Source of the DNA: Candidatus Colimorpha pelethequi
GTDB lineage: Bacteria; Bacteroidota; Bacteroidia; Bacteroidales; P3
Assembly (NCBI GenBank): GCA_018064245.1
Contig: JAGHVO010000020.1
Span: 1 to 64,000, forward strand
DNA length: 64,000 nucleotides
Direction: 5' to 3'
Shown: in pieces, positions 35,127 through 62,935 of the stretch
Layout of the letters: the number at the start of each line of letters is the position of its first letter
How positions within the stretch are numbered: the first letter of the stretch is position 1
Program-made: the position numbers and the translations under genes
Notes under the pieces: model-generated
The model's database searches: none
The model's input: the letters and a program-made list of their open reading frames with translations, nothing else
What the model was told of the DNA's origin: nothing

Positions 35127-37841
35127 ATGACGAAATTTGTTTACACGTTCGGAGGCAAGACTGCCGAAGGCAAGGCTGACATGAAAAACCTGCTTGGCGG
35201 CAAGGGCGCCAACTTGGCAGAGATGTGTCTTTTGGGTCTTCCTGTACCCGCAGGTCTCACCATTACCACGGAATGTTGCACGGCTTATTATGAAAACAAT
35301 TGCCAACTCCCCGCTGGCTTGATGGAGGATGTTTGGAAAGGTATGGAAAATGTTGAGAGACTCATGGGTATGAAATACGACGACCCCGAGAATCCTCTGC
35401 TTGTTAGCTGCCGCTCTGGTGCACGCAGCTCTATGCCTGGTATGATGGACACTGTGTTGAACATCGGTTTGAGCAGCAAGACTATCCCTGGTTTGATTAA
35501 GAAAACTGGCAACGAACGCTTTGTTTACGACTCCTATCGCCGTCTCATTATGATGTACGCCGATGTTGTTATGGAGAAGAGCGAAGGCATCGAACCTGCT
35601 GACGGCAAGGGCATCCGCAAGCAACTTGATGACATGCTTGACGAATTCAAGGCTCAGAAGGGCTACAAGAGCGATACCGATCTTACCGCCGATGACCTCA
35701 AGGAACTTGCCGAAGTTTTCAAGGCTAAGGTTAAAGATGTTCTTGGAACAGAATTCCCCGATGACGCTCGCGCTCAGATGGAAGGCGGCATCAAGGCTGT
35801 CTTCAAGTCTTGGAACGGCAAGAAGGCTGTCAGCTATCGTAAAATCGAAGGCATTCCCGACGATTGGGGTACTGCAGTAAACGTTCAGGCAATGGTATTT
35901 GGCAATATGGGCGACAACAGTGCCACCGGCGTCGCTTTCACCCGTAACCCCGCTACTGGCGACAACCAGTTCTACGGTGAATGGCTCATCAACGCTCAGG
36001 GTGAAGACGTGGTTGCTGGTATCCGCACCCCGAACCCCTTGAACGACGACACCAAGAATGAGCAGAACAAGAATATGCCCTCTCTCCAGCAGCTCATGCC
36101 CGAGACCTATAAGGAGCTCTGCGACATCCGCGCTATTTTGGAGAAGAATTTCCACGATATGCTCGACATCGAGTTCACCATCCAGGACGGCAAGCTCTAC
36201 ATGCTTCAGTGCCGCGTCGGAAAACGCACCGGCGTCGCTGCCCTGACCATGGCTACCGATATGTTGAAGGAAGGTCTCATCGACGAGAAGGAGGTGGTGA
36301 TGAGAATATCCCCCGCCCAGCTCGACGAACTGCTGCACCCCATCCTCGACAGCAGCGACGAGAAGAAGCACGACGTTATCGCCAAGGGTCTGCCCGCAGG
36401 TCCTGGCGGCGCAGTAGGCGTCATCGCTCTCACCAGCGAGAAGGCCAAGGAGTATGCTGCCGCTAAGATTAGCAACATCCTGGTTCGCGAAGAGACCAAT
36501 CCCGAGGATGTCGAGGGTATGCGTGCTGCCGACGGTATCCTTACCGCTCGTGGCGGCATGACCTCTCACGCAGCCCTCGTGGCTCGTGGCTGGGGCAAGT
36601 GCTGCATCGTGGGTTGCGACGCTGTGAAGATTGATTTCGAGAAGGGCATCGTAACCATTGATGGCCGTCAGTTCAAAGAGGGCGACACCCTGGCTTTGAA
36701 CGGCTCTAAGGGCTATGTCTATGCCGAAGAGGTGAAGATGATCAACGCTACCGAGAACCCCCTGTTCCAGGATTTCATGAAGCTGGTTGACAAGAACCGC
36801 ACCATGGGCGTCCGCACCAACGCAGACAACCCCGACGATGCTCTCCGTGCTGTCAGCTTTGGCGCCGAAGGTATCGGACTCTTCCGCATCGAGCACATGT
36901 TCTATGGCAAGAATAGCGAGAAGCCTCTTGAAAAGCTCCGCAATATGATCCTGAGCGACACTACCGAGGAGCGCATCGTCGCTCTGAAGGAACTCGAACC
37001 TTACATCAAGGAGAGTGCCAAGGGCACCCTCAAGGTACTGGATGGTAAGCCCGTCACCTTCCGTCTTATGGATCCTCCTCTGCACGAGTTCGTTCCTCAG
37101 ACCGAAGAGAAACAGCGCATCGCTGCAGAAAAGCATGGATTGAGCTTTGAGGAGGTCAAACGTCGCATTGACGCTCTCCATGAGGTCAACCCCATGATGG
37201 GTCTCCGCGGCGTCCGTCTGGGCATCATCTATCCCGAAATCACCGAGACGCAGTTCCGCGCCCTCTTCAGCGCTACCGCCGAACTGATGAAGGAAGGCTG
37301 CAACCCCATCCTCGAAATCATGGTTCCTCTTACCATTACTATCAAGGAGCTCAAACATCAGAAGGATATCGCCAACCGCGTTAAGGCCGAGGTCGAGGCT
37401 CAGTATGGCGTTGCCATCGACTACAAGTACGGCACCATGATTGAGATTCCTCGTGCCACCCTCGTCGCCGATAAGATTGCCGAGGTTGCCGAGTTCTTCA
37501 GCTTCGGTACCAACGACCTCACCCAGATGACTCTCGGCTTCAGCCGCGATGATGTGAACGCTATCGTCAAAACCTATGTCGATGAGAAGATCATCCCCGC
37601 AGACCCCTTCAACACCCTCGATCAGGAAGGTGTCGGTCAGTTGGTGGAATACGGTGTGCAGCGTGGCCGCAAAACTCGCGAGAATCTGAAGTGCGGTGTT
37701 TGTGGTGAGCATGGTGGCGACCCCGCATCTGTCGAGTTCTTCTATCACGCAGGTCTCAACTATGTGAGCTGCTCTCCCTTCCGCGTCCCCGTGGCACGTC
37801 TCGCTGCCGCTCAGGCAGCCATCAAGGCAAGTCGCAACTAA
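35127..37841 (+). CDS. ppdK: Pyruvate, phosphate dikinase
   Basis: Cytosolic enzyme of 904 residues that interconverts PEP + AMP + PPi and pyruvate + ATP + Pi. The ATG at 35127 gives MTKFVYTFGG, the family start. The ATP-grasp domain carries GGKGANLAEM, then LLVSCRSGARSSMPGMMDT and ARNP-type VAFTRNPATG, and the E-x-Q-x-R site is in IEFTIQDGKLYMLQCR. The swivelling domain holds the phosphohistidine at H481 in GGMTSHAALVARG. The C-terminal PEP/pyruvate barrel has GLRGVRLG, ILEIMVP, and the acid residue CGVCGEHGGDP. Codon usage is strongly biased (mostly GCN/GAC/AAG), as for a very highly expressed gene. It is followed by pckA. Confidence 0.97.
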   Translation: MTKFVYTFGGKTAEGKADMKNLLGGKGANLAEMCLLGLPVPAGLTITTECCTAYYENNCQLPAGLMEDVWKGMENVERLMGMKYDDPENPLLVSCRSGARSSMPGMMDTVLNIGLSSKTIPGLIKKTGNERFVYDSYRRLIMMYADVVMEKSEGIEPADGKGIRKQLDDMLDEFKAQKGYKSDTDLTADDLKELAEVFKAKVKDVLGTEFPDDARAQMEGGIKAVFKSWNGKKAVSYRKIEGIPDDWGTAVNVQAMVFGNMGDNSATGVAFTRNPATGDNQFYGEWLINAQGEDVVAGIRTPNPLNDDTKNEQNKNMPSLQQLMPETYKELCDIRAILEKNFHDMLDIEFTIQDGKLYMLQCRVGKRTGVAALTMATDMLKEGLIDEKEVVMRISPAQLDELLHPILDSSDEKKHDVIAKGLPAGPGGAVGVIALTSEKAKEYAAAKISNILVREETNPEDVEGMRAADGILTARGGMTSHAALVARGWGKCCIVGCDAVKIDFEKGIVTIDGRQFKEGDTLALNGSKGYVYAEEVKMINATENPLFQDFMKLVDKNRTMGVRTNADNPDDALRAVSFGAEGIGLFRIEHMFYGKNSEKPLEKLRNMILSDTTEERIVALKELEPYIKESAKGTLKVLDGKPVTFRLMDPPLHEFVPQTEEKQRIAAEKHGLSFEEVKRRIDALHEVNPMMGLRGVRLGIIYPEITETQFRALFSATAELMKEGCNPILEIMVPLTITIKELKHQKDIANRVKAEVEAQYGVAIDYKYGTMIEIPRATLVADKIAEVAEFFSFGTNDLTQMTLGFSRDDVNAIVKTYVDEKIIPADPFNTLDQEGVGQLVEYGVQRGRKTRENLKCGVCGEHGGDPASVEFFYHAGLNYVSCSPFRVPVARLAAAQAAIKASRN

Positions 37842-37852
37842 TGAGATAATCG

Positions 37853-37895
37853 AAAATGCGGAGTTTGTCATAGTTGCAGCTCCGCATTTTCTCTT
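37853..37895 (+). terminator. Terminator of ppdK
   Basis: AAAATGCGGAG (37853-37863) pairs with CTCCGCATTTT (37880-37890) with a 16-base loop; TCTTTTG follows. Confidence 0.75.
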
Positions 37896-37947
37896 TTGTA
37901 GGAGATAACATTATCTCTAAATCGTCTAATTTTCAAATCTTCAAATT

Positions 37948-39558
37948 ATGGATAAAATCATCGACGCTCTGGAAAAAATCGGTATTACCGGTGTCAAGAA
38001 AATACATTACAATCCTTCCTACGAAGAATTGTTCCAGATGGAAATGGATCCCACGTTGACGGGCTACGACAAAGGTCAGCTTACCGAACTCGACGCAATC
38101 AACGTAATGACGGGCATCTATACTGGTCGTTCGCCTAAAGACAAATACATTGTAATGGACGAGAACTCCAAGAACACCGTTTGGTGGACTTCCGAGGAGT
38201 ACAAGAACGACAACCACCCCTTGAGCGAAGCCAACTGGGCAGTGTTGAAAGACCTTGCAAAGAAGGAACTCTGCAATAAGGAACTTTTTGTTGTTGATGC
38301 TTTCTGCGGCGCCAATAAGGACACTCGCATGGCTGTTCGCTTCATCATGGAAGTGGCTTGGCAAGCTCATTTCGTCCGCAACATGTTCATCAAGCCAACT
38401 GATGAGGAACTCAAAAGTTTCACTCCCAACTTCACCGTCTATACCGCCAGCAAGGCAAAGGTGGAGAACTACAAGGAATTGGGCTTGAACAGCGAGACCG
38501 CCGTGGCTTTCAACATTTCCAGTCGCGAACAGGTTATCCTCAACACTTGGTATGGTGGCGAGATGAAAAAGGGTATGTTCAGTATGATGAACTACTATCT
38601 TCCTTTGCAGGGCATCGCCGCTATGCATTGCTCAGCCAACACTGACATGGAAGGCAAGCATACCGCTATCTTTTTTGGCCTTTCCGGAACGGGCAAGACC
38701 ACTTTGAGCACCGACCCCAAACGTCTGCTTATTGGTGACGATGAGCATGGTTGGGATGACGAAGGCGTGTTCAATTTTGAAGGTGGTTGTTATGCCAAGG
38801 TCATCAACCTCGACAAAGACAGCGAACCCGACATCTACAATGCCATTCGCCGCAATGCTTTGTTGGAAAATGTTACTGTTGATGCTAATGGCAAGATCAA
38901 TTTCGCCGACAAGAGCGTTACTGAGAACACCCGCGTAAGCTATCCTATCGACCATATCGAGAAGATTGTACGTCCTATTTCTGCCGCTCCTGCTGCCGAG
39001 AACGTCATCTTCCTCAGCGCCGACGCTTTTGGCGTATTGCCTCCCGTCAGCATCCTTACTCCCGAACAGTGCAAATACTATTTCTTGAGTGGCTTCACCG
39101 CCAAGTTGGCAGGTACCGAGCGCGGCATCACCGAGCCTACTCCTACCTTCAGCGCTTGTTTCGGTCAGGCTTTCCTCGAACTCCATCCCACCAAGTATGC
39201 TGAAGAACTGGTGAAGAGAATGGAAAAGAGTGGCGCCAAGGCTTATCTGGTCAACACTGGCTGGAATGGTACTGGCAAACGTATCTCCATCAAAGATACC
39301 CGTGGAATCATAGATGCCATCCTCGATGGTTCTATCGACAAGGCTCCTACCAAGAAGATTCCTTATTTCGATTTCGAAGTGCCTACCGCATTGCCCGGCG
39401 TAGATCCCAAAATTCTCGATCCTCGCGACACATACGGTTGCGCTTGCGAATGGGAAGCCAAGGCAAAAGACCTTTCCGCTCGTTTTATCAAGAACTTCCA
39501 AAAGTTCACCTACAACGAAGCAGGCAAGGCTCTTGTCGCCGCAGGCCCTAAACTGTAA
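37948..39558 (+). CDS. pckA: ATP-dependent phosphoenolpyruvate carboxykinase
   Basis: Cytosolic kinase of 536 residues that links oxaloacetate and PEP; in anaerobic Bacteroidota it mainly runs toward oxaloacetate for succinate and propionate formation. The P-loop is [11 protein letters not shown] starting at residue 244, and the metal and substrate residues are in GRSPKDKY (near 60), NMFIKP and [29 protein letters not shown] binds the nucleotide. The length is normal for the ATP-using family. It begins 107 bases after ppdK, but a hairpin lies between, so it probably has its own control. It ends with a terminator at 39578. Confidence 0.97.
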
Positions 39559-60307: not shown

Positions 60308-62935
60308 CTATTCTGTTATTTTCTTTGCTTCCACTTGGGCTTTTATCCAAGGTTTGGACATGTCGAACAGTTCTTCGATAGGCAGCGCCAACTTTTCAAC
60401 CAGCATGTGGGTGTTTTCTTGGTGTTCAATGCTTTCGAGTTCGCTCTTGATGTGATTCCAATCGTGGTTGGCATATAGCAACGGCACAAAGTTGTAGAGG
60501 TCGAAATTCTTGATGACCATATTGTCGATGCCAGTAGTCTCTATTCTTGAATGAGCTCTTGCCAAGCGGATTTCGCCCACTTCTTCCAATACATGCAAGT
60601 ATTTTTCATAAAGCACATATTCGTTGAGCAGAAAGGCTGTGGCTGTGTCGCTGAGATTGTTCCAAACAATGGTGGGCAACGGTTTTGACACAAAACGTCC
60701 CAGCATAAACGCTCCAGCAGTCAATCCCGAGATGCCACGGATGAGGCAGGCTTCGCAGGCTTGCTTGAAAAAAACTATCTTGTTGTTGTTGTAGAGCAGG
60801 TTGAATACCCTTGATTGATCTTGATGGTCGCCCATCTTGCTTTCAAGCACTTGTTTAATGTATAGGTCTGAATGGTCTTGATACCAATTGTTTACGATAA
60901 TCATTGCCTGCTCTGGCTTGTTCTGTAAGTCGCAGCGTATCAGTCGTGCCAAGGTGTCCACGTCGGCGATGTAGTTGGCCTTGGTGGAGTTCACGATTTC
61001 CTGGTATTGGGCATAGGCGACTTTCATGTCTTCGAAAAACACTTTCTCTTCGTCGTTCAGCTCCACGGGTTCGTTGTTGAGATATTTGGTGAATCGTGCA
61101 GGCTTGAAGTCGGCGACACCTTTGTAGATGGTTTGCCGTTTGCTTGAAACGGTGATCATGTCCATCTCCTTGAGTTCCAAACCGTCTTCGTTAATCAGTT
61201 TGTCGCCTTCCTTGCGAATGCCGAAACTCTGCAAATCCATGAATGCAGGAATGCCGTAGCCTCGGCAAGCCGTAACCACATGAATGGCTGCGGGAGTCAT
61301 ACTCATGATGGCGTCCACCTCGTTGAGTGTGATGGTGTCTTCGGGAATAAATCTGTCTTGGCAAAGGCAAACGTTCATTCCCAAGCTTTTCAGTTCGTGG
61401 GCTTTCATCGCACTGAAACAGAGCGTTGCCGTGATGGCGGTACGCGGCAGCACACTCAGTCCTTTGCCGAAATATTGCAGTTTCTCCAACGACGAATCGT
61501 CAATAGAAGCCGAAATGATTTGTCGGAGGTGGTAAGGCTTGATGAGATCCATCACCTGCGGCTCGTCAATCATGCCTTCTTGGTACAGGTTAATGGCAGA
61601 AAGCAGCGCGGCACGGCCCGTCATTTCCGACATATTGAGTTGTAGCACAGAGAAAAGGCTCACTTTGTGGTGCAATGTCTCCACGGCAAACTCAATGGTA
61701 ACGGGCGAGTGGTGGCGCATCTCCAATTTCTTAAGCAGGGGATGGAAGTGATAGACGGCAGGGAAGATGTCCTTGATTTCGTTTCGGTTATGATAGCAGC
61801 GGTCTTCCGAAGTAACGTCTCCCGTCATGATTTCCTCACCGAAAATATTTCTGTAACTTTCAATTTGACAACCACTTCCAGTGCGACTGTGGTGACTGTA
61901 AAGCACGCCTGGGTAGGACTCGTTGTTGCCGATGGTCCACACCATTTTTTGCAAGATGAACGAAGGAAATGCCTGTTTGCCTTGCATGAAGGTCAGGATG
62001 AGGTCCTGGTTTTCGATGTAGAAATCGCGTACATGTAAAATCAGTCTTATGGCCTGGTAATGAGCGTCGTGCAGCGTGCGCTCACCTTCCGTTCCGGTAG
62101 CGATGATTTTCTGCTCCATTTCTTCGATGCGAGCAGTCTGCATCTCGTTCGATAGCTCAATGTCGCTTTTTTCGTAACGATGTTCAATCTTGAGCATTTG
62201 GCAGATGCTGTGCAACGTGCTCAAATAGACTCGGTTGGCCATTGTTTCGGTATGGTTCAACCTAAAACCTTCGTAAGCCTCTCTTGTCATACCAATGTTT
62301 AGCAACGTAGGCATGAGTCCTGGAATGTATTGAGGCATTGCGCAGCGAATGGCGAAAACAAGCGGATGACGCGAGTCTCCCAACTTGTTGCCGGTCATTA
62401 TTTCAAGGTTGGTTATTGCATGTTCAATCAATTCGGGCATGTGCTCGGGATGGTTGAATGCCGCTGCAGTGATGATGCAAAAATCAGGCACAGGATAGCA
62501 GTTTCGCGTAAGGTCAAGCAGGATGCGTCCTTTGTGGCTGATTTCTTCGTCTGTGAAATTACCTGTTGTAAGTGTGGTAATCAGTTCGTTGCTGTCCCAC
62601 AATGGATTTGCCTGGGCGTATTCTTGGCAGTTCTTCCAAAATGCGTCACGACTTTTTTCAAGTTCCTCATGATGTTCTTTTTCGTTGAGAAGCAAGTTGA
62701 AATAGTCCTCACGTTCTTTGTCGTGCAATTTCAGAAGGTAGAACATATCGTACCAACGAGGAGGAAACTCCTTGACAGATCCGTCGTTGTCGGTGTAAAT
62801 CACCGTGCCAGGTTTGTTGCCCTCCAAGGTGTTGGCAATGTCGTCGTTGTCTTTGTTGAAGATTTCGCGGCCTTCCTTGGCGTAAAGCCGAATCATGTAG
62901 TAATTGGGGTAACTTGCTCGAATTAAGAAACTCAT
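60308..62935 (-). CDS. Divergent PPDK-like protein with phosphohistidine swivel domain but no PEP/pyruvate barrel
   Basis: 875 residues with no signal or membrane segment. It aligns with the canonical ppdK of this window in several places. HPLVFAIRC and YIPGLMPTLLNIGM (190-216) match [27 protein letters not shown] in order; IGNNESYPGVLYSHHSRTGSG (335-355) matches GDNSATGVAFTRNPATGD; TIEFAV...VLQLN (413-434) matches the E-x-Q-x-R site but with N434 in place of R; TGRAALLSAINLYQEGMIDE matches TGVAALTMATDMLKEGLIDE; AIHVVTACRGYGIP (550-563) matches TSHAALVARGWGK with the phosphohistidine H552 kept. Instead of the PEP barrel, residues about 606-875 are a helical domain without any PPDK motif. Also the N-terminal 140 residues are unlike PPDK. 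A phosphotransfer or regulatory role is an inference. Confidence 0.75.
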   Translation of the reverse strand: MSFLIRASYPNYYMIRLYAKEGREIFNKDNDDIANTLEGNKPGTVIYTDNDGSVKEFPPRWYDMFYLLKLHDKEREDYFNLLLNEKEHHEELEKSRDAFWKNCQEYAQANPLWDSNELITTLTTGNFTDEEISHKGRILLDLTRNCYPVPDFCIITAAAFNHPEHMPELIEHAITNLEIMTGNKLGDSRHPLVFAIRCAMPQYIPGLMPTLLNIGMTREAYEGFRLNHTETMANRVYLSTLHSICQMLKIEHRYEKSDIELSNEMQTARIEEMEQKIIATGTEGERTLHDAHYQAIRLILHVRDFYIENQDLILTFMQGKQAFPSFILQKMVWTIGNNESYPGVLYSHHSRTGSGCQIESYRNIFGEEIMTGDVTSEDRCYHNRNEIKDIFPAVYHFHPLLKKLEMRHHSPVTIEFAVETLHHKVSLFSVLQLNMSEMTGRAALLSAINLYQEGMIDEPQVMDLIKPYHLRQIISASIDDSSLEKLQYFGKGLSVLPRTAITATLCFSAMKAHELKSLGMNVCLCQDRFIPEDTITLNEVDAIMSMTPAAIHVVTACRGYGIPAFMDLQSFGIRKEGDKLINEDGLELKEMDMITVSSKRQTIYKGVADFKPARFTKYLNNEPVELNDEEKVFFEDMKVAYAQYQEIVNSTKANYIADVDTLARLIRCDLQNKPEQAMIIVNNWYQDHSDLYIKQVLESKMGDHQDQSRVFNLLYNNNKIVFFKQACEACLIRGISGLTAGAFMLGRFVSKPLPTIVWNNLSDTATAFLLNEYVLYEKYLHVLEEVGEIRLARAHSRIETTGIDNMVIKNFDLYNFVPLLYANHDWNHIKSELESIEHQENTHMLVEKLALPIEELFDMSKPWIKAQVEAKKITE

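Follow-up and report, generated by a model that had tools for sequence, protein, structure and literature searches.

What can PPDK become once the part of the enzyme that handles phosphoenolpyruvate (PEP) and pyruvate has been exchanged for something else? The question is raised by an 875-residue protein encoded by an uninterrupted frame at 60308-62935 on the minus strand of a 64,000-nucleotide stretch of DNA, hereafter called the window, from Candidatus Colimorpha pelethequi (Bacteroidales; contig JAGHVO010000020.1 of assembly GCA_018064245.1, positions 1-64,000 of the forward strand). In PPDK, the ATP-grasp and swivelling domains form the half of the enzyme that makes phosphohistidine from ATP. 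A preliminary description of the locus held that the protein retains this half, including the histidine, and that unrelated helical sequence has replaced the PEP/pyruvate barrel. With a probability of about one in two, we consider the protein to be a PPDK-derived swivelling histidine phosphoprotein whose C-terminal helical domain would hold a new acceptor or partner. The features on which the argument turns are the following.

60308..62935, minus strand: entire gene of the PPDK paralogue, 875 amino acids; open frame, with intact frames in related genomes
62543..62935, minus strand: N-terminal extension, residues 1-131
61487..62542, minus strand: predicted ATP-grasp nucleotide-binding domain and linker, residues 132-483, homologous to PPDK
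61121..61486, minus strand: predicted swivelling phosphohistidine domain, residues 484-605, homologous to PPDK, 24 of 122 columns invariant
61280..61282, minus strand: codon of H552, the phosphohistidine position
61634..61636, minus strand: codon of N434, which replaces the arginine of the LQxR motif
60311..61120, minus strand: predicted all-helical C-terminal domain, residues 606-875, at the position of the PEP/pyruvate barrel, from profile and model evidence
35127..37841, plus strand: canonical ppdK, used for comparison; PPDK_N, PEP-utilizers and PEP-utilizers_C all above cut-off

Homology to PPDK

The NCBIfam model of PPDK, TIGR01828, covers residues 133-620 with an E-value of 1.7e-36, its score of 125.6 bits falling below the curated cut-off of 843.45. 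A single-sequence phmmer comparison with the C. symbiosum enzyme (1dik_A) aligns residues 134-612 with residues 21-514 (E 1.5e-20), and the family profile, made from 27 members, finds PPDKs in the PDB at about 1e-33, the best alignments ending at PPDK residue 514-515. Profile-profile comparison (hhalign) with 21 Bacteroidales PPDKs gives a colinear match (99.7%, E 9e-27), the local alignment extending at little similarity to residue 673 (PPDK 634), beyond the swivel. The Pfam family PPDK_N is suggestive at most, since it matches the window protein under its cut-off (E 0.0031); it reaches E 0.1 or better in 18 of the 27 members. ATP-grasp, linker and His swivel are kept in PPDK order and are colinear across about 480 residues, as the preliminary description had stated, and phmmer, TIGR01828 and hhalign agree on this. 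On these sequence comparisons, the homology of the two domains to PPDK is far beyond chance. Their assignment rests on sequence profiles because the full-length AlphaFold model is poor: at a mean predicted local distance difference test (pLDDT) score of 52, it cannot directly confirm the N-terminal folds.

An addition to the preliminary description is the N-terminal extension of 131 residues, which has no counterpart in PPDK. A Pfam search with residues 1-132 gave no match, nor did the PPDK profile match the extension, and two of the 131 columns (Y9 and N11) are invariant.

A helical domain in place of the barrel

The genome (2.38 Mb, 95% complete) yielded one copy of the PEP barrel (PF02896), which lies inside the canonical ppdK of the window; PF02896 does not appear in the Pfam listing of any of the 27 members. 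Residues 606-875 alone, compared with PPDK or with its barrel by hhalign, gave probabilities of 0.2-0.3%. A profile of this region from 18 members reached E 0.022 at best in the PDB, and no Pfam family at E up to 1 occurred in more than three of the 18. The structure model of residues 606-875 alone, built from five input sequences, reached a pLDDT of 80.2 and a predicted template modelling score (pTM) of 0.77. It contains 15 helices and no strand, so that the predicted domain is unlike a beta/alpha barrel. Foldseek and VIA-align returned weak likenesses to helical repeats and nothing stronger. Among the 270 columns, 31 are invariant, including R614, E630, H704, R747, E772 and K778. Profile searches and modelling thus confirm that the PEP/pyruvate barrel is absent and that a helical domain of no convincing Pfam or PDB family takes its place. 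The preliminary description had been right about the loss and about some 270 unrelated helical residues; structure prediction bore it out at the C-terminus, where no barrel was predicted, and left the N-terminal folds unconfirmed.

The ATP site and the proposed phosphotransfer

Residues were compared in an alignment of the 27 family members, the other 26 of which are 40-68% identical to the window protein; PPDK residue numbers were counted on the phmmer alignment with 1dik. Invariant in all 27 members are K135 (PPDK K22), R197 (R92), E359 (E271), E415 (E323), Q432 (Q335) and H552 (H455). The last of these falls on H481 in the PPDK of the window and on the catalytic histidine, as had been proposed. 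The predicted phosphate loop carries R351 in all members at the position of PPDK S262, and R441, just after LQxN, is conserved in 26.

In the reading that we favour, the ATP-grasp domain (132-483) would bind ATP and phosphorylate H552 on the swivel domain (484-605); next, the swivel would hand on either phosphate or the phosphorylated state, the acceptor or partner being held by the helical domain (606-875). This acceptor would be something other than pyruvate. That H552 is phosphorylated from ATP, that phosphate is passed on and that the C-terminal domain plays this part are all inferred by analogy with known systems; the acceptor or partner site is most likely the helical domain with its invariant R614, E630, H704, R747, E772 and K778.

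Several observations weigh against this reading. The LQxR arginine (PPDK R337), which is R in at least 20 of the 21 local PPDKs, is lost in all 27 members (N in 26, D in one), and the aspartate two residues before the metal-site glutamate (D321) is threonine in all 27. The GGMTSHAA histidine loop of PPDK differs as well, reading P(A/V)A(I/V)HV in the family. PPDK has 207 near-invariant columns before residue 545, and in only 48 of them does the family conserve the same residue. Residues 1-605 have no adequately confident model, and neither the neighbouring genes nor the fold matches point to an acceptor. On the functional roles that we take R337 and D321 to have in PPDK, their loss suggests altered or lost chemistry. 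Among the same 207 columns, 42 are conserved in both groups but differ between them, while in 10 most members have a gap. The second arginine of RSGAR has also gone, being P in 21 members and S in six; this loss and the change from arginine to asparagine in E-x-Q-x-R had both been noted in the preliminary description. This comparison of residues and columns indicates that the nucleotide site is partly kept and partly rebuilt.

The main alternative, which we regard as rather unlikely, is that the protein is a pseudo-dikinase: the nucleotide would still be bound and the swivel would perhaps still move, but phosphohistidine would no longer be made, and the N- and C-terminal parts would act as a scaffold or regulator responsive to ATP/AMP. 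What speaks for it is the loss of the arginine and the aspartate. However, a pure scaffold need not keep H552, K135, E415 and Q432 all invariant across 27 sequences. Moreover, R351 and R441 could replace the lost arginine, which is a guess made from sequence.

Comparison with known systems

In PPDK itself (TIGR01828; 1dik), ATP-grasp, linker and His swivel stand in the same order as in the window protein, which keeps the catalytic histidine; by contrast, the window protein has no barrel, carries N- and C-terminal extensions, has Arg to Asn in LQxR and Asp to Thr, and has an altered His loop. Barrel loss by itself is not new, since a barrel-less PPDK relative, VadK (Rv1127c), has been published. 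VadK is described as a truncated PPDK that autophosphorylates its own histidine with ATP and Mg, interacts with enzymes of the methylcitrate cycle and is encoded near the genes of its targets (PMC13400623). With VadK as precedent, it is plausible that the window protein would be phosphorylated on histidine from ATP and pass the phosphate elsewhere. The two proteins have in common the PPDK ATP-grasp and swivel without the PEP barrel; going by its published description, VadK stops after the swivel, whereas the window protein adds a helical part of 270 residues and an N-terminal part of 131. The NCBIfam model NF004531, which, judging by its length, probably covers VadK-type proteins, matches the window protein at 84.2 bits, under its curated cut-off of 456, and reaches E 0.001 or better in all 27 family members.

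It might be asked, then, whether the protein is a regulatory histidine kinase of the VadK kind, which would autophosphorylate and control metabolic enzymes by binding, its C-terminal domain docking rather than accepting. Such a role would have a parallel in VadK itself, which autophosphorylates and interacts with its target enzymes without a barrel (PMC13400623), and would agree with the matches of the whole family to NF004531 and with the all-helical model of the C-terminus. Nevertheless, the NF004531 score is below the cut-off, VadK as described stops at the swivel, and it is encoded close to its targets (PMC13400623), whereas the 875-residue gene has no immediate neighbour common beyond the genus. 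We consider this role improbable.

In other systems the ATP-grasp/His-swivel pair is reported to serve a different acceptor: an additional acceptor domain in rifampin phosphotransferase (RPH; PMC4844700) and another acceptor in the two-component HpeHI (PMC12167813). These small-molecule dikinases resemble the window protein in combining ATP-grasp and His swivel, and their acceptor domain is non-pyruvate (PMC4844700, PMC12167813). Lys22 of RPH, reported to be essential, occupies the same position as PPDK Lys22 (PMC4844700), which is K135 in the window protein. On the other hand, the acceptor domain of RPH is described as lying between ATP-grasp and swivel and as including an alpha/beta part (PMC4844700), whereas the new domain of the window protein follows the swivel and is predicted to be all-helical. 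Being colinear with PPDK through both domains, the window protein has no large RPH-like insert between them. Searches of residues 606-875 against Pfam and PDB gave no sequence match to domains of the RPH/HpeHI type, and the RPH acceptor domain is not among the fold matches listed for these residues, though the two may be related in fold.

The retained ATP-grasp and swivel might also be one half of a two-component PPDK that uses in trans a stand-alone barrel or that of the canonical enzyme, which is very improbable given that the only PF02896 found in the genome lies within ppdK and that a conserved, unrelated domain fills the position of the barrel.

The papers listed by word searches of the literature include no description of the 875-residue family. 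Barrel-less PPDK relatives as such are already known; what is new is the C-terminal domain, the N-terminal part and the altered ATP site. As a separate observation, a Jeotgalibaca plasmid carries a 613-residue PPDK frame, given as the longest open frame (L096:2001-3512), beside a gene for a pyruvate, water dikinase regulatory protein.

Distribution, selection and origin of the family

Relatives were sought in 61 genomes, 37 of the same genus and 24 of other members of the order. A full-length member without internal stop was found in 29: in 28 of the 37 same-genus genomes (counting the window's own; identity of the others 64-71%) and in one of the remaining 24 (56% identical). The weaker matches resemble canonical PPDKs, and all 20 that were fetched are such, at 52-85% identity to the window's ppdK. 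Since the gene is missing in five same-genus genomes of at least 93% completeness, it counts as accessory and is patchily distributed. That the C-terminal domain exists elsewhere was established by an order-wide search with residues 606-875, in which 16 of 295 genomes, the window's own included, and 14 of 184 genera carry it; it is missing from three genomes that belong to another genus in the same taxonomic family. The domain sits in frames of 886-921 residues or, in one case, in a cut frame. Thirteen of the 15 other carriers could be read whole (883-913 residues, 40-43% identity end to end), one is 54% identical (G039) and the last is truncated at the end of its contig. In a sample of 395 genomes of the phylum, among whose 20 listed non-matching genomes five belong to the order, the window's own genome was the sole match to the whole-family profile at E 1e-40 or to the C-terminal profile at E 0.001. 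A scan of named bacterial contigs with the single protein, which reaches close relatives only and covers other phyla at lesser depth than the order or phylum, returned four metagenome-assembled Bacteroidales or Bacteroidetes records, one of them labelled as coming from buffalo rumen.

Ratios of non-synonymous to synonymous substitution rates (dN/dS) were estimated for the eight closest pairs, with many dS values near saturation: they are 0.03-0.14 for the C-terminal domain (computable in six pairs), 0.06-0.12 for the ATP-grasp region (five pairs) and 0.12-0.30 for the N-terminal extension (six pairs). Judged by these values, the new C-terminal domain is under purifying selection. A decaying gene or an artefact, as the five nearly complete genomes without the gene might be taken to indicate, may be dismissed: 29 family matches have no in-frame stop, and we hold the idea refuted by dN/dS of about 0.30 or less for every domain in every computable pair.

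A maximum-likelihood tree was built on 467 columns from 55 sequences, namely 28 PPDKs (21 of the order and seven of other phyla) and the 27 family members. It splits the two groups with an ultrafast bootstrap of 100%, and the 21 PPDKs of the order form their own clade (94). The gene did not arise by recent duplication of the local ppdK. Nor is it a replacement, as the preliminary description had recognized, because a canonical ppdK is present in its own genome and in all 15 carriers outside the genus (in G176 split over two frames, in G131 split by a contig end); in the window's genome, PPDK_N matches the canonical ppdK alone. A second, PPDK-like match occurs in 28 of the 29 carriers of the 61-genome search, the exception being a genome that is 78% complete (G033). 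By its sequence relationships, the protein is a deep paralogue of PPDK.

Two irregular frames were seen. The canonical ppdK of G176 (G176:C63:7568-10284) is spread over two frames that overlap; the break falls near residue 466, between ATP-grasp and His, and may be an assembly error or real. In G031 (L010:1459-5130, minus strand), the family frame stays open for 335 codons further upstream, giving 1224 amino acids, which may be a fusion or a mere open frame.

A second type of barrel-less PPDK relative was found in four of the 15 carriers, in frames of 1357-1422 residues (L103:2620-6501 and L104:2221-6000, both minus strand; G131:C145; G215:C30). The L103 and L104 proteins share ATP-grasp and swivel without barrel with the 875-residue family, but in them a very long N-terminal stretch of unrelated sequence precedes PPDK_N, the swivel, with TSHAA, is close to the C-terminal end and has almost nothing behind it, and LQTR is retained. 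They group with PPDKs in a FastTree tree, apart from the family.

Genomic context

Neighbourhood conservation across Bacteroidales was not borne out for directly adjacent genes: in 23 neighbourhoods, none is common beyond the genus. Further away, five neighbour families recur in two genera; one of the five keeps its side and orientation and lies 7-8 genes upstream. Ten chosen same-strand neighbours have unrelated functions. The suggestion that the protein acts as a sensor of the PEP node found no support, no immediate neighbour being shared beyond the genus.

In the window, an S41 peptidase gene (with Tricorn C1; 62997-63986, minus strand) lies directly upstream on the same strand, at a gap of 61 bases; it is directly upstream in five of eight loci compared from the genus. 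In some other species of the genus, the frame adjoins or runs a little into that of a TPR protein upstream or of a PAP2 phosphatase downstream (L070:8911-9435, L071:11871-12638), the partner varying by species. Elsewhere in the window, the gene directly after the canonical ppdK encodes a PEP carboxykinase of the ATP type (PF01293, E 1.3e-201; together 35127-39558, plus strand), so that two PEP-node genes are adjacent.

Implications

It is tempting to go one step further and to regard the proteins as an undescribed family of Bacteroidales phosphohistidine enzymes, PPDK-derived dikinases with a rebuilt ATP site, in which the LQxR arginine has gone and the phosphate loop has gained an invariant one, that phosphorylate an acceptor held in a new all-helical domain; we advance this tentatively, as somewhat short of an even chance. 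If true, it would mean a new small-molecule kinase or a new histidine-phosphate signalling route for these bacteria. New domains behind the ATP-grasp/His-swivel pair have given rise to new kinases, as in RPH and HpeHI, while VadK, which has simply lost the barrel, is a regulator. A conserved family with an unfamiliar domain at the position of the barrel and without the LQxR arginine offers a direct test of how far chemistry of the PPDK type can change, and it may reveal a new phosphorylated metabolite or histidine-phosphate regulator in Bacteroidales.
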